DNA of 64,000 nucleotides, from NCBI GenBank assembly GCA_009720755.1, contig WNKV01000003.1, forward strand, positions 124,001-188,000. Reading direction: 5' to 3'. Below, piece after piece: positions 55,451 to 64,000 of the stretch (positions are counted from its first letter, which is position 1; each line of letters starts with the position of its first letter). A program made the position numbers and the translations under genes. The stretch comes from Rhodoplanes serenus (GTDB lineage Bacteria > Pseudomonadota > Alphaproteobacteria > Rhizobiales > Xanthobacteraceae). Under the pieces are notes generated by a model. The model saw nothing but the letters and a program-made list of their open reading frames with translations, was not told the DNA's origin and made no database searches.

Positions 55451-56416
55451 ATGGTCGACATCCTGTTCATCAAGACCTCCTCGCTCGGCGACGTGGTGCA
55501 CAACATGCCGGCCGTCACCGACGCCCGCCGTCACCGCCCGGCGGCCCGCCTCGCGTGGGTGGTCGAGGAGGCGTTCGCGCCGCTCGCCCGCCTGCATCCG
55601 GGGGTCGACGAGGTGATCCCGGTGGCCTGGCGGCGCTGGCGGCGGCAGCTCGGGCGGGCCGCCACCTGGCGCGAGATCGGCCGCTTCGTGGCACGGCTGC
55701 GGGCGCGCCCCTATGACACCGTGATCGACACCCAGGGCCTGGTGCGTACCGCGGTGATCACCCGGCTCGTCCGCGGCCCCCGCCACGGCTACGATCGGCG
55801 CAGCGTGCGCGAGGCGCTGGCGAGCGCGAGCTACGACGTCCGCCACGCGGTGGGGCGCGAGCTGCATGCGGTCGACCGCAACCGTCTGCTGACCGGCCGG
55901 GCGCTCGGCTATGCGCCGGAGGGGCCGATCGATTACGGGCTCGACCGCGCCGCGCTGGCGCCGGCCGACGGGGCAGGGGCGCCTTATGCGGTGCTGCTGC
56001 ATGCCACCGCCCGCCCCGAGAAGGAATGGCCCGAGGACCACTGGGTGGCACTGGGGCGGTCGCTGGCGGCGCGCGGGCTCGAGCTGGTGCTGCCCTGGGG
56101 CACCGAGGCCGAGGCGGCGCGGGCGCGCCGGCTCGCCGCCGCATTGCCGGGCGCCCGGGTGCCCGACCGCCGGCCGCTCGACGAGGTGGCGCGGCTGATC
56201 GCTGGCGCCACCGTGGTGGTCGGCGTCGATACCGGGCTCCTGCATCTCGCCGCGGCGCTCGGCGTGCCATTGGTGTCGATCTTCGTCGGCAGCGAGCCGA
56301 CGCTGACCGGGCCGACCGGAACCGGGCCGATCGCGACGCTCGGCCGCGACGGCGGCCGCTGCGCGGTCGCCGAGGTCGAGGCCGCCGTGGCGCGGGTGCT
56401 GCCGGCGGGCCGCTGA
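55451..56416 (+). CDS. waaC: lipopolysaccharide heptosyltransferase I
   Basis: 321 residues, GT9 family. ILFIKTSSLGDVVHNMPAV at the N-terminus, DTQGLVRTAVITRLVRG in the acceptor domain, and HATARPEKEWPEDHW with GVDTGLLHLAAALGVPLVSI at the donor site. Adds the first heptose to the lipid A-Kdo core at the inner membrane. It is followed by a short tandem repeat before the convergent pobA. Confidence 0.92.
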   Translation: MVDILFIKTSSLGDVVHNMPAVTDARRHRPAARLAWVVEEAFAPLARLHPGVDEVIPVAWRRWRRQLGRAATWREIGRFVARLRARPYDTVIDTQGLVRTAVITRLVRGPRHGYDRRSVREALASASYDVRHAVGRELHAVDRNRLLTGRALGYAPEGPIDYGLDRAALAPADGAGAPYAVLLHATARPEKEWPEDHWVALGRSLAARGLELVLPWGTEAEAARARRLAAALPGARVPDRRPLDEVARLIAGATVVVGVDTGLLHLAAALGVPLVSIFVGSEPTLTGPTGTGPIATLGRDGGRCAVAEVEAAVARVLPAGR

Positions 56417-56419
56417 GGC

Positions 56420-56462
56420 GGCGTGCCGCCGCAATGGCGTGCCGCCGCAATGGCGTGCCGCC
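56420..56462. repeat. 16-bp tandem repeat
   Basis: Unit GCGTGCCGCCGCAATG present about 2.7 times between the convergent ends of waaC and pobA. Possibly slippage-prone; no function evident. Confidence 0.7.
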
Positions 56463-56467
56463 GTCGC

Positions 56468-57721
56468 TCAGGTTTCCAGAGGCAGCCCGATATACTGCTC
56501 GGCCAGGGCCGCCTGGGCGGTCGGCGAGGCACACAGGTGATCGAACTCGTTCTGATTCACCCGGGTGTCGAAGCCGTCCTGCTCGGGGAAGACATGCAGG
56601 AGCCGCGTCAGCCACCAGGACAGCCGCTCCGCCCCCCAGACCCGCCGCAACGTAGTCTCCGAGTAGGAGTCGAGCCAGCGATCATCGCCGGCCTTGAAGT
56701 GGGCGACGAGGGCGCGCTGGAGATAGAACACGTCCGAGACGGCGAGATTGAGCCCCTTGGCCCCGGTCGGCGGCACGATGTGGGCGGCATCGCCGGCCAG
56801 GAACAGCCGTCCATAGCGCATCGGCTCGGCCACGAAGCTGCGCAGCGGCGCGATCGACTTCTCGATCGACGGCCCGGTGGCGATGCGGTCGGCGAGCGGC
56901 TTGGGAAACCGGGCCTTCAGCTCGGCCCAGAATCGGTCGTCCGGCCAGTCGGCCAGATCGGTGCCGATCGGGCACTGGACGTAGTAGCGCGACAGCATCG
57001 GCGAGCGCTGGGAGGCGAGCGCGAAGCCGCGCTCGTGCTGGGCATAGATGATGTCGTCGAGCGGCGGCGTCTCCGACATGATGCCGAGCCAGCCGAACGG
57101 ATAGGCGCGCTCGAAGGTGCGCAGGACGTCGGCCGGGATGCTCTGCCGCGAGACGCCGTGGAAGCCGTCGCAGCCCGCCACGACGTCGCAGTCGATGCGG
57201 TGAGCGATGCCGTCCCGGGTGAAGGTGACGAAGGGCGAGTCGCTGGTGACGTCGTGCAGGCGGACATCGGCGGCGCCCTCGACGAGCTCGCCGCCGCGTT
57301 TCTCGCAAGCCGCATAGAGGTCCTGGGTGATGGCGGTCTGGCCGTACGCCATCATCTTGCGGCCGGTGTGCTTGTGGGTGTCGATGAGGAACGGCGCCCG
57401 ATCCTGCCAGGCGATCACGGTGCCGTCGTGCGGCTTGCCCTCGCGGTCCATGCGGTCGCCGAGCCCGACGTCCCGCAGGAGCCGAACGGTGCCCTCCTCC
57501 AGCACGCCGGCGCGGATGCGCGACAGGACGTGCGCCTTGGTCTGGCGCTCCACCACGATGCTGTCGACGCCGCCGAGATGCAGCATGTGCGAGAGGAGAA
57601 GGCCGGCGGGGCCGCCGCCGATCACGGCGACCCGGGTGCGGTGGCGAACCGCTGCTCCCGTGTGGCGGCGCGATGGTCGCGGGGCGGCCGGGGAGGCGGG
57701 GGAGCTGCCGTTCTGCGCCAT
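56468..57721 (-). CDS. pobA: 4-hydroxybenzoate 3-monooxygenase
   Basis: FAD/NADPH enzyme that converts 4-hydroxybenzoate to protocatechuate. 417 residues; about 27 N-terminal residues (Ser/Ala/Pro-rich) precede the usual start, and no better start is available. VAVIGGGPAGLLLS (FAD), VLSRIRAGVLEEG, YGQTAITQDL, GCDGFHGVSRQSIPA, YPFGWLGIM, SRYYVQCPI (active-site Tyr201 equivalent), KSIAPLRSF, GDAAHIVPPTGAKGLNLA and AEQYIGLP (Tyr385 equivalent) are all present. 10 bases after ligB, so one pobA-ligAB operon read in the order ligA-ligB-pobA. Confidence 0.96.
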   Translation of the reverse strand: MAQNGSSPASPAAPRPSRRHTGAAVRHRTRVAVIGGGPAGLLLSHMLHLGGVDSIVVERQTKAHVLSRIRAGVLEEGTVRLLRDVGLGDRMDREGKPHDGTVIAWQDRAPFLIDTHKHTGRKMMAYGQTAITQDLYAACEKRGGELVEGAADVRLHDVTSDSPFVTFTRDGIAHRIDCDVVAGCDGFHGVSRQSIPADVLRTFERAYPFGWLGIMSETPPLDDIIYAQHERGFALASQRSPMLSRYYVQCPIGTDLADWPDDRFWAELKARFPKPLADRIATGPSIEKSIAPLRSFVAEPMRYGRLFLAGDAAHIVPPTGAKGLNLAVSDVFYLQRALVAHFKAGDDRWLDSYSETTLRRVWGAERLSWWLTRLLHVFPEQDGFDTRVNQNEFDHLCASPTAQAALAEQYIGLPLET

Positions 57722-57731
57722 GGCTGGATCG

Positions 57732-58574
57732 CTAGGCGGCCGCGAGCGAGATGAGGCCCATGCCGGTCGTCATCGGGGCGTAGTAGTTGAGGTGCTTGCG
57801 CTCGACCGCACCGCCCGCCAGGGCGCCGCGCATGACCAGCCACATGATCAGCTCGACCGATTCGGCGCCGGCCGCCGCCATGATCTCTTCGTGCGTCATC
57901 CGGCACAGCTCCTCCGGATCACGCGCGATCAGGTCGAGCCAGCGGCGATCGAACGTCTCGCTGAGATGGCCGAAGCGCTCGCCATGGAGCTGATGCGACA
58001 TGCCGCCGGTGCCGACGACGACCACCTTGAGGTCCTCCGGATAGGAGGCGACGGCGCGGCCGATGGCCTGTCCGAGCCGGAAGCAGCGGCGCGCCGTCGG
58101 CAGCGGATGCTGGATGACGTTGACGACGATCGGCACCACCCGAACGGCCCAGTCGGGATCGTGCGAGAACAGCAGCGGCAGCGGCGCCATCATGCCGTGG
58201 TCGACCTTCATCTCCTGACAGACGGTCAGATCGAATTCGTCGTAGATCACCGCCTTGGCGATGTGCCAGGACAGGTCGGCGTCACCTTTCACGGGCGGCA
58301 GCGGCCGGGTGCCGAAGCCTTCGTCGGCCTGCTCGTAGATGTCGCGGACGCCGATCGCGAAGGTCGGCACGCGATCGAGGCTGAAGTCGGAGCCGTGATC
58401 GTTGTAGACCACGACGGCGACGTCCGGCCTCACCGTGTCGCGCAGCCATTCCCTCACGGGCACGTAGCCGTCGAAGAGCGGCTTCCAATCCGGGTCCTCG
58501 AACTTGCGGCCGTCGTAGGCGGGGCCGAAGCTCGGCACGTGGCTGCTGCCGATTCCGGCGACGATCTTGGCCAT
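57732..58574 (-). CDS. ligB: protocatechuate 4,5-dioxygenase beta (catalytic) subunit
   Basis: 280 residues. Extradiol class III dioxygenase. The Fe(II) ligands correspond to His12 (GSSHVPSF), His60 (YNDHGSDF) and Glu241 (AESVELIM), with catalytic His194 (GMSHQLHG), matching LigB's His12/His61/Glu242/His195. Opens protocatechuate to 4-carboxy-2-hydroxymuconate-6-semialdehyde. 31 bases after ligA. ligC and the hydratase/aldolase genes needed afterwards are not in the window. Confidence 0.95.
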   Translation of the reverse strand: MAKIVAGIGSSHVPSFGPAYDGRKFEDPDWKPLFDGYVPVREWLRDTVRPDVAVVVYNDHGSDFSLDRVPTFAIGVRDIYEQADEGFGTRPLPPVKGDADLSWHIAKAVIYDEFDLTVCQEMKVDHGMMAPLPLLFSHDPDWAVRVVPIVVNVIQHPLPTARRCFRLGQAIGRAVASYPEDLKVVVVGTGGMSHQLHGERFGHLSETFDRRWLDLIARDPEELCRMTHEEIMAAAGAESVELIMWLVMRGALAGGAVERKHLNYYAPMTTGMGLISLAAA

Positions 58575-58605
58575 GCCTCATCTCTCCCTGTTGTTCGCCG
58601 GCCGG

Positions 58606-58986
58606 TCAGCGCGCGCCCTTGGCGCCGCGCGTCTCGAGGAACTGCTCGTAGGTCTCGCCGCGCATCTGCGCGCCCATGTGGTACAGGCCGGAGCCGGTGG
58701 CGGCGCCGAGCTTGTAGATGTAGTAGATGTTGCCGCCGTGGTGCTTGGTGAGCGCCAGCCAGTCGCGTCGGCGGATCGCGTCCTTCTGGGCCTCCGTCAG
58801 GCCGTATCGCGCCATGTAGGCTTCTTCATCCTTCTTGAAGGCTTCCCGGTTCTGCGGGTCCGTCAGCGAGTAGGCGAGCTTGTTCAGCTCGAAGCCGACG
58901 CGCGACCGTGTGTGGTCGAAGATGTAGGTGCCGGGAATGCCCCAGTCGCTGAGGCCAGCTTGTGGTCCGTCCTTCTTCTCGTCCAT
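58606..58986 (-). CDS. ligA: protocatechuate 4,5-dioxygenase alpha subunit
   Basis: 126 residues. Helical LigA subunit that closes over the LigB active site: GTYIFDHTRSRVGFELNKLA, then NREAFKKDEEAYMARYGL and KDAIRRRDWLALTKHHGGNI. The normal length for the family is about 140. First gene of the ligA-ligB-pobA operon, divergent from the LysR gene 98 bases away. Confidence 0.95.
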   Translation of the reverse strand: MDEKKDGPQAGLSDWGIPGTYIFDHTRSRVGFELNKLAYSLTDPQNREAFKKDEEAYMARYGLTEAQKDAIRRRDWLALTKHHGGNIYYIYKLGAATGSGLYHMGAQMRGETYEQFLETRGAKGAR

Positions 58987-59064
58987 CTGCGGTCCTCCGT
59001 GAGACGCTGCCCGCGCTTGACAGAAGCCTAACGGCGGTCCCTACACTGAGCCATTCCCGCAACG

Positions 59065-59079
59065 GAATTCGTCGAATTC
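59065..59079. promoter_or_regulatory. paired GAATTC motif between ligA and lysR
   Basis: GAATTC-gtc-GAATTC, a 15-bp palindrome in the 98-base divergent region, just upstream of the LysR start. Candidate regulator site, perhaps part of a longer LysR-type T-N11-A box (TTC-N9-GAA type). By eye only. Confidence 0.35.
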
Positions 59080-59084
59080 TCCTC

Positions 59085-60026
59085 ATGAATGATGGCGACA
59101 TCAGCCTGCGCCACCTCAAGCTGCTCGCGCTTCTGTTGGAGGTGCGCAGCCTCACCAAGGCGGCCGTCATCCTGGAGACCACGCAGCCGACGGTGAGCAA
59201 GATGCTGGCGCGGCTGCGTGCACATTTCGGTGATCCGCTGCTGGTGCGCGTCGGGCTGGGGATGGAGCCGACGCCGCGCGCCGCCGAGCTCGCCGAGCCG
59301 CTGCGGGGGCTGCTCGCGGTATCTGATCACCTCAAGTCGGCGACTGCTGCCTTCGACCCGGCGACGTCCACCCGTGAATTCCGCGTGCTGGTCAGCGAGG
59401 TCGGCATGGTGCATCTCGTGCCGCAGATCATGACCGCGCTCGAGCGCGCCGGTGGTGGCCTGCGGTTACGCGCGGTTCCGCTCGATGCGCGCCATGTCTC
59501 CGCCAAGCTGGAGAGCGGCGAGGCGGACGTGGCGCTCGGCACCTTCCCGGGCGAGATCGGCGGTCTCCAGCGCCAGAAGCTCTATGTCGACCCCTATGTC
59601 AGTGTCGTGCGCCGCGATCATCCGCGCCGCGATCTGCTGTCGCGGCTCGATGCCTTCCTGGCGGAGCGCCACATCCTGGTCACCGGCTCCAGCACCGGAC
59701 ACGCGGCGCACCAGCAGCTCGAGCGCGAGATGACCGCACGGCTCGCGCCCGAGAGCATCCGGCTCCGCGTGCCGAACTTCGTGAGCTGTGCATTCGTGGC
59801 GAGCCGGACCGAGGCGATCGGCACCATGCCGGCACGGCTCGCCTCCTATCTGATCGGAGATTTGCCGCTCGCCGTCATCGAGCCGCCGTTCCCGCTGCCG
59901 CGCATCGAGATCTCGCAGGTGTGGCACGAGCGCGTCCATCACGACGCGGGGCATCGCTGGCTGCGTGGCCGCATCTTCCAACTGTTCCGGTCGCGCCGCC
60001 GCGGCGAGGCCGACTGCGAACCCTGA
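59085..60026 (+). CDS. LysR-family transcriptional regulator
   Basis: 313 residues. N-terminal HTH (LTKAAVILETTQPTVSKMLA, RLRAHFGDPLLVR) and a substrate-binding domain with EFRVLVSEVGMVHLVPQ and ESGEADVALG. Lies between the divergent ligA-ligB-pobA operon and the dehalogenase gene, so it probably responds to a 4-hydroxybenzoate or halo-hydroxybenzoate, or to a cleavage intermediate, and activates either or both. Confidence 0.92.
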   Translation: MNDGDISLRHLKLLALLLEVRSLTKAAVILETTQPTVSKMLARLRAHFGDPLLVRVGLGMEPTPRAAELAEPLRGLLAVSDHLKSATAAFDPATSTREFRVLVSEVGMVHLVPQIMTALERAGGGLRLRAVPLDARHVSAKLESGEADVALGTFPGEIGGLQRQKLYVDPYVSVVRRDHPRRDLLSRLDAFLAERHILVTGSSTGHAAHQQLEREMTARLAPESIRLRVPNFVSCAFVASRTEAIGTMPARLASYLIGDLPLAVIEPPFPLPRIEISQVWHERVHHDAGHRWLRGRIFQLFRSRRRGEADCEP

Positions 60027-60186
60027 CAATTCCATCCGCGCATTCGATCCATTCCAAACGGCGTCTCGGCAAGTTCGCGGCGCTCGGAAATCATCGTTCC
60101 CGCAGTGGACGCGGGCATTGTCTCCGCCCGGTCGCCAGCGCGGTGGCGGCTCGCGTCCCGGACCGCGAAGGTCGGGACCAGGATCG

Positions 60187-63100
60187 ATGCAGCTCTTCTC
60201 GCATGCGAAGCGTCCGGTGCATCTCGGGCCGTATCCGTCCGAACGGCTCGGCCGCACCACCGACATGCCGGATCTCGGGCGGGTCGCCGGCGACGGCACG
60301 TTGAGCCCGACGGACGGGGCGGGCGGACTTGCCGACGCGATGAGCGAGTTTCTCTGCGCGCTCGATGCCGTGCGGCAGGGCGACCGCAATGCGGCCGCGG
60401 CCGAGATTCCGGACGATCCCGACGAGCGGGCGCGGCACCTCAAGGCGGCCGGCTACTTCCTCGACAGCGCGCTGGTCGGGATTTGCCGCCTGGACGCGGT
60501 CCACCGGCTCCCCCGCCGCATCGAGCATCCGGACTTGCGCACCGTTTCCTACCAGGCCTCCGAGGAGAAGCTCCGGCTGCGCTTCAATCCGAGCGCGGTG
60601 ATCCGGCAGATGCAGCGGTCCTTGGTCCTGACCGATGCCGGCATCACGCATCACACCCACGCGATCGTGTTCATGGTCGAGCATCCGCGCGATCCGGCGG
60701 TCGACGAGCCGGGCGCGGAGTGGATCGTCGGCTTGCAGGGCTGGCGCGCCGCCCTGCGCAGCGCCGAGACCGCGACGGTGCTGGCCAACTACCTGCGCAT
60801 CCTCGGCTACGATGCGTGCAGCCATTCGGCGACGACGACCGATGTCGATCTGCACCGGCTCGCGGTGTCGGCCGGGCTCGGGCGCGTGACGAGCCGGGGC
60901 ACCGTGGTCAATCCGTTCATCGGCAGCCGCTTCGGCCTCGCCGCCGTGACCACCACGATGGCGCTGGCGCCGGATGCGCCATTGCGTCGCCAGAGCCTCG
61001 GCGATCGCCTGCGGGCCCAGGGGCCGGGCTGGTGGATCGGCTGGGCGAGCCCGAAGACGGCGCGCAACCGCCTGGAGTTCGCCCGGCGCGCCTTCAAGGA
61101 CAGCCGCTTCCCGGTGGAGACACTGAAGCGGGTCGATCGTCCGACCACGTTCATCGACGAGGAGCGCATCCCGCGCAGCCCGAAGAGCAGCGAGTTCTTC
61201 CTGCGCGCCGCCTTCGGGGATCTGGGCAAGGCGGCGCAGGACGCCTCCAAGGACGGCTTCTCGGTCGCCAAGGCGCCGCTCGCCGCCGCACTGCGGCTCG
61301 CCCTCAACGTCTATTCGCTGCTCCAGCGCGGCGAGCCGGCGGGCGCGCCGGCGGCAGGCCACGACGATCCCGTCCGCAATGCCGACACCGTCAAGGCCAC
61401 CATGCACTGGCTCGGCGCCGACCTCGCCGGCGTGTCGCGGGCGCCCGCCTGGGTCTGGTACTCGCACCGCCAAGACGGGACCGAGATGCCGGTCGCGCAT
61501 CCGCTCGCGGTCTCGGTGATGATCGACCAGGGCCACGAGACCATGGAGGGGGCCTCCGGCGACGACTGGATCTCCAGCGCCCAGTCGATGCGCACCTACA
61601 TGCGGGCCGGCCTCGTCTGCGGCGTCGTCGGCCGGCATCTGCGCCGCCTCGGCTTCTCGGCGACGGCCCATTCGGCCGCCGACAGCGACGTGATCCAGAC
61701 GCCGCTGGTGCTGCTCGCCGGTCTCGGCGAGGTCAGTCGCATCGGCGACATCATCCTCAACCCATTCCTCGGGCCGCGGCAGAAGACCGGCATTCTGACC
61801 ACCGACTTTCCGATGCGTCCCGACCAGCCGATCGACTTCGGCTTGCAGACGTTCTGCGGCTCCTGCAACAAGTGCGCGCGCGAATGCCCCTCGGGCGCGA
61901 TCTCGTCCGGCCCCAAGGTGATGTTCAACGGCTACGAGATCTGGAAGGCCGACGTCGAGAAGTGCACGCGCTATCGCATGACCAACATGGGCGGCTCGAT
62001 GTGCGGCCGCTGCATGAAGACCTGCCCGTGGAATCTCGCCGGGCTGGTCCGCGAGGCGCCGTTCCGCTGGGCCGCCATGAATCTGCCGTGGGCGGCGCGG
62101 TGGATCGCCCGCCTGGACGACGCGCTCGGTCGCGGGCGCATCAACCCGGCCAAGAAATGGTGGTGGGACGTCACCAACGACGGCACCGGCAAGATCGTGC
62201 AGGCGGCGGAGATCAACCGGCGTGGACTGAACACGCATATCGATCTGAAGTACGAGGACCAGACGCTCGCGGCCTATCCGGCGCCATTGGTGCCGCCGCC
62301 GCTGCCGGCGCCGTTCCCGATCGATCGCGAGGCCGGCATCGCCGCCTACCGGCAGCTCCTCAGCCCGCAGGAGCACCAGGATCGGATCGCCCGCGGCGAG
62401 ACCGAAGGGCTGGTGCCCGGCCCGCGCCCGCTCGACGGGGCGCCGCCCGTCATCGTCGCCGAGGTCGGCCGTCGCTGGACCAGCTCCGCCGACGGCAAGA
62501 TCGATCTGTTCGAGATCGTGTCGCGCGACGGCGCGCCGCTGCCGCCGTTCGAGGCCGGCGCCCATATCGACGTGACGGTGACGCCCCAGTACATCCGCCA
62601 GTTCAGCCTGGCCGGTGATCCGGCCGACACCAGCCGGTATCTGGTCGGCGTGCTGCGCGAGGATCTGGGGCGGGGCGGCTCGATCAAGATCCATCAGATG
62701 CTCAAGCCCGGCACCCCGGTGGTGATCTCGCGCCCGCGCAATCATTTCCCGTTGGTCCGTGATGCGCGCCGTCATCTTCTGCTCGCCGGCGGCATCGGCG
62801 TCACCCCGTTGGTCGCCATGGGCCACGCGCTGCATCGCGCGGGCGCCGACTTCACTTTATATTATAAGGCGCGGACCCGCGCCCAGGCGGCGTTCGTTGC
62901 CGAGCTGGAAGCGGTGCCGTGGGCCCGGCGGGTGCACTTTCGGTTCAGCGACGAGTGCCGGCTGAACGTCGCCGACGTGCTCACCGGCTATCGGCCGGGC
63001 GATCATCTCTACACCTGCGGACCGGCGGCGTTCATGGATGCGGTGTTCGGGGCGGCGCTGGCCCTCGGCTGGCACGAGGACGCCCTGCATCGCGAGTACT

Positions 63101-63399
63101 TCTCGGTCCCCGAGGCCAAGGCGTACGACAACCACCCGTTCACGCTGGAGCTGAAGCGGACCGGGCGGTCCATCGTGGTGCCGGCCGACAAGGCGGCGAC
63201 CGCGGCGCTGCGCGAGGCCGGCGTCACGGTGGACGTCAAGTGCAGCGACGGGCTGTGCGGCGTCTGCAAGGTGCCGTGTCTGGAGGGCGAGATCGAGCAT
63301 CGCGATTACGTGCTCAGCAAGAGCCAGCGAGCCACCCACATGATCCTGTGCTGCTCGCGGGCGAAGCAGCCGGACGGAACCATCGTGGTGGATCTGTAG
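60187..63399 (+). CDS. rdhA: self-sufficient catabolic reductive dehalogenase (RdhA-reductase fusion, BhbA/NpRdhA-like)
   Basis: 1,070 residues, no Tat signal, so cytoplasmic. Residues 1-640: cobalamin- and 2x[4Fe-4S]-containing RdhA. Cluster motifs: CGSCNKCARECPSGAI (Cys557, 560, 563, 567), then Cys593 and CGRCMKTCPW (606, 609, 613). The residues Tyr471, Lys533 and Arg597 keep the 62- and 64-residue spacings of the NpRdhA active-site Tyr426/Lys488/Arg552 (numbers from memory). Residues 750-1070: phthalate-dioxygenase-reductase-like module: FMN RQFSLAGDP (804 on), NAD LLLAGGIGVTP (865 on), plant-type [2Fe-2S] Cys1019, 1024, 1027, 1055. Together these allow NAD(P)H-driven removal of halogen from aromatics. 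It lies with lysR, ligAB and pobA. Confidence 0.95.
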   Translation: MQLFSHAKRPVHLGPYPSERLGRTTDMPDLGRVAGDGTLSPTDGAGGLADAMSEFLCALDAVRQGDRNAAAAEIPDDPDERARHLKAAGYFLDSALVGICRLDAVHRLPRRIEHPDLRTVSYQASEEKLRLRFNPSAVIRQMQRSLVLTDAGITHHTHAIVFMVEHPRDPAVDEPGAEWIVGLQGWRAALRSAETATVLANYLRILGYDACSHSATTTDVDLHRLAVSAGLGRVTSRGTVVNPFIGSRFGLAAVTTTMALAPDAPLRRQSLGDRLRAQGPGWWIGWASPKTARNRLEFARRAFKDSRFPVETLKRVDRPTTFIDEERIPRSPKSSEFFLRAAFGDLGKAAQDASKDGFSVAKAPLAAALRLALNVYSLLQRGEPAGAPAAGHDDPVRNADTVKATMHWLGADLAGVSRAPAWVWYSHRQDGTEMPVAHPLAVSVMIDQGHETMEGASGDDWISSAQSMRTYMRAGLVCGVVGRHLRRLGFSATAHSAADSDVIQTPLVLLAGLGEVSRIGDIILNPFLGPRQKTGILTTDFPMRPDQPIDFGLQTFCGSCNKCARECPSGAISSGPKVMFNGYEIWKADVEKCTRYRMTNMGGSMCGRCMKTCPWNLAGLVREAPFRWAAMNLPWAARWIARLDDALGRGRINPAKKWWWDVTNDGTGKIVQAAEINRRGLNTHIDLKYEDQTLAAYPAPLVPPPLPAPFPIDREAGIAAYRQLLSPQEHQDRIARGETEGLVPGPRPLDGAPPVIVAEVGRRWTSSADGKIDLFEIVSRDGAPLPPFEAGAHIDVTVTPQYIRQFSLAGDPADTSRYLVGVLREDLGRGGSIKIHQMLKPGTPVVISRPRNHFPLVRDARRHLLLAGGIGVTPLVAMGHALHRAGADFTLYYKARTRAQAAFVAELEAVPWARRVHFRFSDECRLNVADVLTGYRPGDHLYTCGPAAFMDAVFGAALALGWHEDALHREYFSVPEAKAYDNHPFTLELKRTGRSIVVPADKAATAALREAGVTVDVKCSDGLCGVCKVPCLEGEIEHRDYVLSKSQRATHMILCCSRAKQPDGTIVVDL

Positions 63400-63418
63400 C
63401 GGGCGACGGAGGTGAGCG

Positions 63419-63438
63419 GGCGGCGCCTTGGCGCCGCC
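63419..63438 (+). terminator. hairpin after rdhA
   Basis: GGCGGCGCC-TT-GGCGCCGCC, a 9-bp GC stem 20 bases after the dehalogenase stop. No U-run; may only attenuate readthrough into the transporter gene. Confidence 0.4.
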
Positions 63439-63582
63439 GAGACATGTCCGGGTCGGTGATCCGGGCGCCCAGACGAGCCGGCGGCGCACGACGCTCCTCT
63501 GGGGCGCCGGGCGGGCGCCGTCGTACGGGCGTCGTCGTGACGATCATCGAAAATCAAACAACACTGAAAGGGAGGACTCACG

Positions 63583-64000
63583 ATGACAGCAACGCGGATC
63601 TCGAGGCGCCGGTTCATCGCCGCGGGGGCAGGGCTGATGGCGCTCTCCGCCGCGCCGGCAAGGGCTTCGCCGCTCGCCGGCAAGACCATCCGGATCGTCT
63701 ACCCGTTCGCGGCCGGCAACACCGGCGACGCGGTGGCCCGCATCCTGGCGGACCAGCTCCAGCGCAGCCTGGGTGCGGTGGTGTTCGTCGAAAATCGTGC
63801 CGGCGCCGCCGGCCGCACCGGCACCCAGTCGGTGATTCGGTCGGAGCCCGACGGGACCACGCTGCTGCTGGCGCCGCTGCCGGTCATCTCCATCTATCCG
63901 CACTCCTACGACAAGCTCGGCTACGATCCGTTCACCGAGCTACAGCCGATCTCCCAGGTCGTGCTGTTCGACATCGCCTTCGTGTCGGGGCCGAAGCCGG
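63583..64000 (+). CDS. tripartite tricarboxylate transporter (Bug-family) substrate-binding protein, partial
   Basis: Runs off the window; 139 residues seen of a usual 320 or so. GGGAGGA lies upstream of the ATG. Tat-like signal ISRRRFIAAGAGLMAL ending APARA, then the Bug/TctC fold: KTIRIVYPFAAGNTGDAVAR, QLQRSLGAVVFVENRAGAAG, TGTQSVIRSEPDGTTLLL, PHSYDKLGYDPFTEL and QPISQVVLFDIAFVSG. Bug proteins bind small carboxylates in the periplasm. Directly after rdhA, it is a good candidate for capturing the halogenated aromatic acid. Confidence 0.93.
   Translation, partial: MTATRISRRRFIAAGAGLMALSAAPARASPLAGKTIRIVYPFAAGNTGDAVARILADQLQRSLGAVVFVENRAGAAGRTGTQSVIRSEPDGTTLLLAPLPVISIYPHSYDKLGYDPFTELQPISQVVLFDIAFVSGPKP

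Follow-up and report, generated by a model that had tools for sequence, protein, structure and literature searches.

A BhbA-like, predicted self-sufficient reductive dehalogenase of Rhodoplanes serenus lies in a gene cassette missing from three same-genus genomes

How Rhodoplanes serenus came to encode a reductive dehalogenase (RdhA) fused to its own reductase, and which substrate such an enzyme would serve, are the questions raised by the rdhA locus in the 64,000-nucleotide stretch analyzed here (contig WNKV01000003.1, positions 124,001 to 188,000; hereafter, the window). Judged by its sequence, the 1,070-residue product is a near relative of the described enzyme BhbA and not a new kind of protein; what is new here is the cassette context, the sister genomes without the cassette, a pocket signature of the BhbA clade, and a second, NpRdhA-like RdhA in the same genome. 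We consider it quite probable that RdhA is a cytoplasmic, self-sufficient, BhbA-like enzyme performing NAD(P)H-driven ortho-dehalogenation of a halo-4-hydroxybenzoate, with PobA and LigAB acting on the product. Three features lift the locus above routine: a bounded cassette that sister genomes lack, the position of BhbA among alphaproteobacterial sequences, and the presence of both catabolic RdhA archetypes in one genome. Oxygen-tolerant, NAD(P)H-driven dehalogenases are sought for the breakdown of brominated pollutants.

Because the GC-rich DNA (~70% guanine plus cytosine) also yields an antisense open reading frame (ORF) of 914 amino acids (aa) overlapping the rdhA frame, the claim for rdhA is carried by homology and not by frame length. 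The mechanical ORF extends 5' to a GTG at 59965, and the alignments with NpRdhA and BhbA begin at the Met at 60187. The original prediction of an RdhA-reductase fusion is borne out: the protein scores 206.7 bits against the NCBIfam RDH model TIGR02486 (cut-off, 160.35), and it matches BhbA of Comamonas sp. 7D-2 (WP_015585978) over its full length, with the same fusion, 72.0% identity and 100% query coverage in the plasmid search. Its best solved-structure match is NpRdhA of Nitratireductor pacificus (4ras and 6zxu; E value 5e-168, covering residues 1-106 and 155-733), to which it is 43% identical over 669 aligned positions. The proposed complete phthalate-dioxygenase-reductase module is likewise upheld by a match of residues 774-1063 to the phthalate dioxygenase reductase 2pia (E 1.1e-60), a Fer2 match and four cysteines kept in all fused relatives compared. 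Pfam at E 0.001 returns small pieces only (Fer2, two Fer4 models, and a DmmA-like match). Where the prediction had placed NpRdhA among the fused self-sufficient enzymes, it did not stand, since the solved NpRdhA chain has 704 residues and no reductase, and PMC10463259 calls it naturally truncated; for the same reason, we rejected assignment of the window fusion to an NpRdhA type. By its published description, JtRdhA of Jhaorihella thermophila is also a self-sufficient RdhA-reductase fusion with the same Tyr, Lys, and Arg, and that paper describes a self-sufficient subgroup that includes BhbA, as well as an inserted segment that covers the active site of JtRdhA and of fusions related to it (PMC10463259). 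We infer that RdhA residues ~107-154, an insertion relative to NpRdhA, are this same insert.

An AlphaFold2 model of RdhA, built on a 29-sequence alignment, has a mean predicted local distance difference test score (pLDDT) of 84.5 and a predicted template modeling score (pTM) of 0.86. Its top Foldseek matches are NpRdhA chains, with a template modeling (TM) score of ~0.90 by target length and 41-42% identity, which indicates the same RdhA fold; next come self-sufficient P450s whose reductase module is of the same type, then 2pia and PceA. The NpRdhA structure has a duplicated, vestigial cobalamin domain (PMC10463259), and both the alignment of the N-terminal half of RdhA with NpRdhA and the fold superposition point to such a domain at the RdhA N terminus. 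Were the protein instead an epoxyqueuosine reductase (QueG) or another class III B12 enzyme, it would not be a dehalogenase, and weak QueG matches do occur (TIGR00276, 39.6 bits; 5d6s, E 0.00027). However, 39.6 bits is far under the TIGR00276 cut-off of 200, whereas the RDH score exceeds its own, and the 50 Foldseek matches listed (335 reach E 0.001 or better) include NpRdhA, PceA, and reductases but no QueG. We therefore reject QueG as the true family, agreeing here with the original prediction, and regard this identity as extremely improbable. Traits of respiratory RdhA proteins were also looked for: no twin-arginine translocation (Tat) motif is seen by eye in the N terminus, MQLFSHAKRPVHLGP, as had been stated, and no RdhB-like Pfam match was returned among the neighboring ORFs submitted. 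From this N terminus, a cytoplasmic enzyme is predicted.

To compare RdhA with its relatives, we scanned GTDB species genomes, which gave 278 pattern matches and 235 stretches encoding an RdhA relative. The class had been described as having few known members; this number, together with the purification and characterization of JtRdhA (PMC10463259), revises that view. The best 80 of the 235 were compared and, with the window protein, two plasmid proteins, and locus L090 (L and G numbers are our labels for loci and genomes), make up a set of 84 fused proteins. Outside this set are NpRdhA, four reductase-less proteins (L087, L092, L093, and L094), the partial fusion L091 (626 residues), and six more full-length plasmid matches (H3-H8).

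The catalytic residues are conserved throughout. Tyr471, Lys533, and Arg597, originally proposed as the active site, fall on NpRdhA Tyr426, Lys488, and Arg552 with the anticipated spacings of 62 and 64 residues, and NpRdhA Ser422, Met423, and Phe291 are likewise kept in RdhA; the equivalents of all six are identical in 84/84 fused proteins. PMC7565698 locates these six NpRdhA residues at the substrate, and alignment with the solved NpRdhA complexes would set Tyr471, Lys533, and Arg597 at the cobalamin face. The 12 Fe-S cysteines that had been expected are equally invariant in the 84 proteins, namely residues 557, 560, 563, 567, 593, 606, 609, and 613 for the [4Fe-4S] clusters and 1019, 1024, 1027, and 1055 for the [2Fe-2S] cluster. 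Cys1056 was tried as the fourth [2Fe-2S] ligand and discarded, being kept in just 48/84 proteins versus 84/84 for Cys1055.

Read at 12 positions that line the NpRdhA pocket (list from PMC7565698), the substrate-pocket signature is FFSSVSSMYAKR in 5/5 BhbA-clade proteins and in 0/79 of the remaining fused proteins. NpRdhA differs from window RdhA at 5 of the 12 positions, and L008 and L009 depart from the clade signature at one position each, 419.

Phylogenetic trees were generated from 33 of the 84 fused proteins, chosen by us, and, as a quick tree, from 89 rows without L091. Window RdhA pairs with L006, from a Rhodospirillales metagenome-assembled genome (MAG), with support of 100/99 in the 33-row tree and 99 in the quick tree. 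BhbA is sister to this pair (100/96 and 97, respectively), RdhA of Nitratireductor sp. OM-1 joins next (95/90 and 91), and L007 follows; the resulting five-row BhbA clade is supported at 100/100 and 100. The other nine betaproteobacterial rows form their own group (100/100) with BhbA outside it, which argues that BhbA is not of that set. On the 33-row tree, the betaproteobacterial label, taken like the alphaproteobacterial one from record titles, needs two changes, and a single change is found in 0% of 200 bootstrap trees. The alphaproteobacterial label also follows the original prediction; a search of this assembly for 16S gave no match. BhbA thus nests among alphaproteobacterial rows, and the tree suggests where this herbicide-degrading enzyme came from. 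In the plasmid search, 1,157 records match, and in 8 of them the match spans at least 80% of RdhA; the 22 further records listed align with its reductase part. The closest is the OM-1 protein (plasmid pOM-1, WP_113156447), with 74.9% identity, 100% query coverage, and the same fusion and pocket; a search by strain and plasmid name found no paper naming this strain among the matches listed. Another catabolic reductive dehalogenase, debrominating 2,6-dibromophenol, is described from a marine Roseobacter (PMC13101508).

What RdhA would do can be proposed from its characterized relatives, by analogy with which we assign cofactors, electron path, activity, substrate, transport, and regulation. In these enzymes, NADPH gives a hydride to flavin mononucleotide (FMN), single electrons pass via [2Fe-2S] and [4Fe-4S] clusters to cobalt, the halogen contacts cobalt, and a Tyr supplies the proton (PMC10463259 and PMC7565698). 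Because window RdhA is identical at the relevant positions, the same mechanism would be expected. NAD(P)H would transfer a hydride to FMN in the C-terminal module, and single electrons would run through the [2Fe-2S] cluster and the two [4Fe-4S] clusters to base-off cob(II)alamin. The reduced cobalt would then take the ortho halogen off a 4-hydroxybenzoate that Ser467, Lys533, and Arg597 hold in place, by halogen-cobalt contact and with Tyr471 as the proton donor. The 4-hydroxybenzoate so formed would be converted by PobA to protocatechuate and by LigAB, through 4,5-ring cleavage, to a ring-opened product; the genes for these proteins lie divergently beside rdhA (Table 1). The LysR-type protein probably regulates the locus, and the TctC-type protein may capture the substrate for uptake. 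A genome match to cobN (1089.3 bits with its neighbors; cut-off, 822.05) is consistent with B12 synthesis or supply.

Table 1. Features of the rdhA locus, in window coordinates
Feature	Position	Strand	Evidence
rdhA, predicted BhbA-type self-sufficient catabolic reductive dehalogenase, 1,070 aa plus stop	60187..63399	+	Homology, profile, fold
Insertion relative to NpRdhA, residues ~107-154	60505..60648	+	Alignments
Predicted cobalamin-binding core with Tyr471 and Lys533, residues ~395-555 (approximate limits)	61369..61851	+	Alignment, model
Eight Cys of the two [4Fe-4S] clusters and Arg597, residues 557-613	61855..62025	+	Alignment; Pfam Fer4_7/Fer4_16
Phthalate-dioxygenase-reductase module (FMN, NAD(P)H, C-terminal [2Fe-2S]), residues ~752-1070	62440..63396	+	2pia, Fer2, four Cys
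PobA, 4-hydroxybenzoate 3-monooxygenase, 417 aa	56468..57721	-	TIGR02360, 588.1 bits (cut-off, 538.7)
LigB, class III extradiol dioxygenase, 280 aa	57732..58574	-	NF009902, 427.8 bits (cut-off, 299); Pfam LigB, 239 bits
LigA-like, protocatechuate 4,5-dioxygenase alpha subunit, 126 aa	58606..58986	-	TIGR02792, 83.6 bits
LysR-type regulator, 313 aa from the chosen ATG	59085..60026	+	HTH_1, LysR_substrate; mechanical ORF from GTG 58962
TctC-type periplasmic receptor, 328 aa in the contig, exceeding the window end	63583..64000	+	TctC, 176.5 bits (full), 59 bits (in-window)
Cassette lacking in three same-genus genomes	56407..64000 (window-scale 56407-64775, 8,369 bp)	.	Local-alignment limits

From BhbA, the pocket, and the PobA/LigAB context, we infer a halo-4-hydroxybenzoate as the preferred substrate, and purified JtRdhA, an oxygen-tolerant enzyme, debrominates 3,5-dibromo-4-hydroxybenzoate with NADPH in air (PMC10463259). 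The same chemistry could nevertheless serve another natural substrate, a bromophenol or a brominated phenylacetate, with PobA and LigAB handling 4-hydroxybenzoate from elsewhere: JtRdhA takes many bromo- and iodophenols and reaches 99% of its top rate with 3-bromo-4-hydroxyphenylacetate (PMC10463259), and most relatives have no pobA or ligAB match in the flanking DNA compared. By tblastn at E 1e-10, among 82 other RdhA loci whose flank lengths vary, so that absences are soft, PobA is matched at four (L006, L039, L088, and L089) and LigB at three (L008, L088, and L089). Two observations make this alternative unlikely. The window pocket equals that of BhbA at 12/12 positions, a signature that no fused protein outside the clade has, and PobA lies beside rdhA at 3/4 BhbA-clade loci other than the window (one copy partial) versus 1/78 others.

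We accordingly favor the halo-4-hydroxybenzoate substrate, and several findings weigh against it. The LigA-like protein, at 83.6 bits, falls below the TIGR02792 cut-off of 108.6; a LigC query from Nitratireductor OM-1 gave nothing convincing in the genome (best, 31% identity); and L007, itself in the clade, shows no match to PobA or LigAB across the flanking DNA examined. The TctC-type receptor is 30% identical to that of pBHB and could carry something else, and for chlorinated substrates in particular, PMC10463259 reports that JtRdhA does not dechlorinate. A complete protocatechuate 4,5-pathway in the genome was considered and not supported, given the weak LigC result and LigI-like matches of at most 46%.

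The gene order here is shared with neither plasmid relative. On pBHB, the betaproteobacterial conjugative plasmid that carries bhbA, ligA, ligB, and a TctC receptor gene stand directly before bhbA with a pobA piece nearby; window rdhA, in contrast, is on a 394-kb contig. The pBHB pobA match (L088:11824-12669) begins at residue 141 of the window PobA, which is full length. As recorded, the pBHB pobA copy looks N-terminally incomplete. On pOM-1, PobA and LigAB are also nearby, in an order that differs from that of the window cassette. At 30% identity, the TctC-type receptor was not accepted as an orthologue of the pBHB one.

To examine how the locus arose, we looked in same-genus genomes for its flank markers, a glycosyltransferase gene before the cassette and a ribose-5-phosphate isomerase gene on its far side. 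The alignment with G001 ends at window-scale 56406 and resumes at 64776, with 127 bp there versus 8,369 bp here; the same borders are 961 bp apart in G002 and 2,765 bp apart in G004, with no cassette match at E 1e-5. The cassette is therefore absent from 3/3 same-genus genomes whose sequence spans the site without a break, a count from which G003 (flanks on different contigs) and G005 (left gene not found) were left out. Dehalogenation, hydroxylation, and ring cleavage thus appear in this same-genus comparison as one block, present or absent together. At E 1e-60, a threshold that would miss weaker RdhA matches, 14/80 genomes match the RdhA query (its own included), eight of them in the reductase part only. 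The RdhA part is matched in 0/5 same-genus genomes (one only 58% complete), in 1/42 other same-family genomes, that one without the reductase, and in 4/32 order-level genomes, with a full fusion in G076 and a partial one at a contig start in G071.

These distributions suggest that the gene block carrying rdhA was probably acquired by this lineage. An ancestral cassette lost in sister species would also leave cassette-less sites, which alone do not separate insertion from deletion; no terminal repeats were recognized at the borders among the repeats shown, no integrase was found among the neighboring ORFs submitted to profile search, and the content of the site itself varies between sisters. 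Loss is, however, hard to square with the missing cassette in all three contiguous genomes, with the lack of an RdhA match in 5/5 same-genus and 41/42 other same-family genomes (the exception being reductase-less), or with a cassette GC content of 0.692 against 0.735 and 0.719 in the flanks, and we regard it as quite unlikely. A literature search, with mostly off-topic results judged by titles and abstract openings, found nothing on this cassette.

The site carries other DNA in the sisters, at L118 1822-4586 (G004, 2,765 bp) and L119 2621-3581 (G002, 961 bp), and it may be a variable spot whose content differs between sisters. At the left border, window positions 56404-56463 (L117:2404-2463) contain short GC-rich tandem repeats with a 16-bp spacing, a possible scar.

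The genome encodes a second RdhA, of 710 aa and without a fused reductase, at L087:9755-11887 (G000 C22, ~203755-205887). This protein, and not window RdhA, is the close relative of NpRdhA, with 77.7% identity over 682 aligned positions and NpRdhA's letters at 12/12 pocket positions. Its neighbors encode a LysR protein, an FAA hydrolase, a DctP receptor, a flavin adenine dinucleotide (FAD)-binding hydroxylase-like protein, a glyoxalase-superfamily protein, and a class II aldolase, so that it apparently adjoins a second aromatic catabolic cluster. The search of the 19 ORFs submitted around it showed neither a ferredoxin nor a reductase of this type.

Whether the fused enzymes act on bromo-compounds alone is, according to PMC10463259, unclear, and a BhbA relative with a clade-specific pocket together with an NpRdhA relative in one genome offers a direct comparison for that question. 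A broader scenario, which we put forward tentatively and think somewhat doubtful as a whole, is that the cassette represents a haloarene-mineralization module that occurs naturally and can be transferred, and that BhbA originated within alphaproteobacterial enzymes whose substrates were natural halo-4-hydroxybenzoates before it passed to a betaproteobacterial plasmid. The pBHB bromoxynil operon would then have been assembled from modules of this kind, its neighboring pobA now being only partial. In the same scenario, the BhbA-type enzyme and the separate NpRdhA-type enzyme, each beside a related LysR gene, would split the work, perhaps between bromo- and chloro-substrates, and the clade letters S, S, S, and A at NpRdhA positions 307, 310, 419, and 452 would set the substrate range.

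Identities among the neighboring proteins vary. The window PobA is 73-74% identical to PobA of L006 and L089, and the LigA-like protein is divergent, with 43-46% identity to its matches in L008, L088, and L089. The window LysR shares 70% identity with the L006 LysR that adjoins rdhA and 46% with the one next to the second RdhA. No sigma-70 promoters were found in 58900-60250. The full TctC-type receptor gene scored is L086:5583-6569, and its product has an RRRF leader, which by eye we take to be a Tat-like motif.

Catabolic neighbors also occur beside fused RdhA proteins outside the BhbA clade. In Pseudomaricurvus alkylphenolicus (L008, 14410-15626), LigA and LigB follow a fused RdhA that is 58% identical to that of the window. 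In a Rhizobiaceae-group MAG, from a distant part of the family, a PobA-like match (52%) lies 4 bases past the fused RdhA match (L039:13205-14389).

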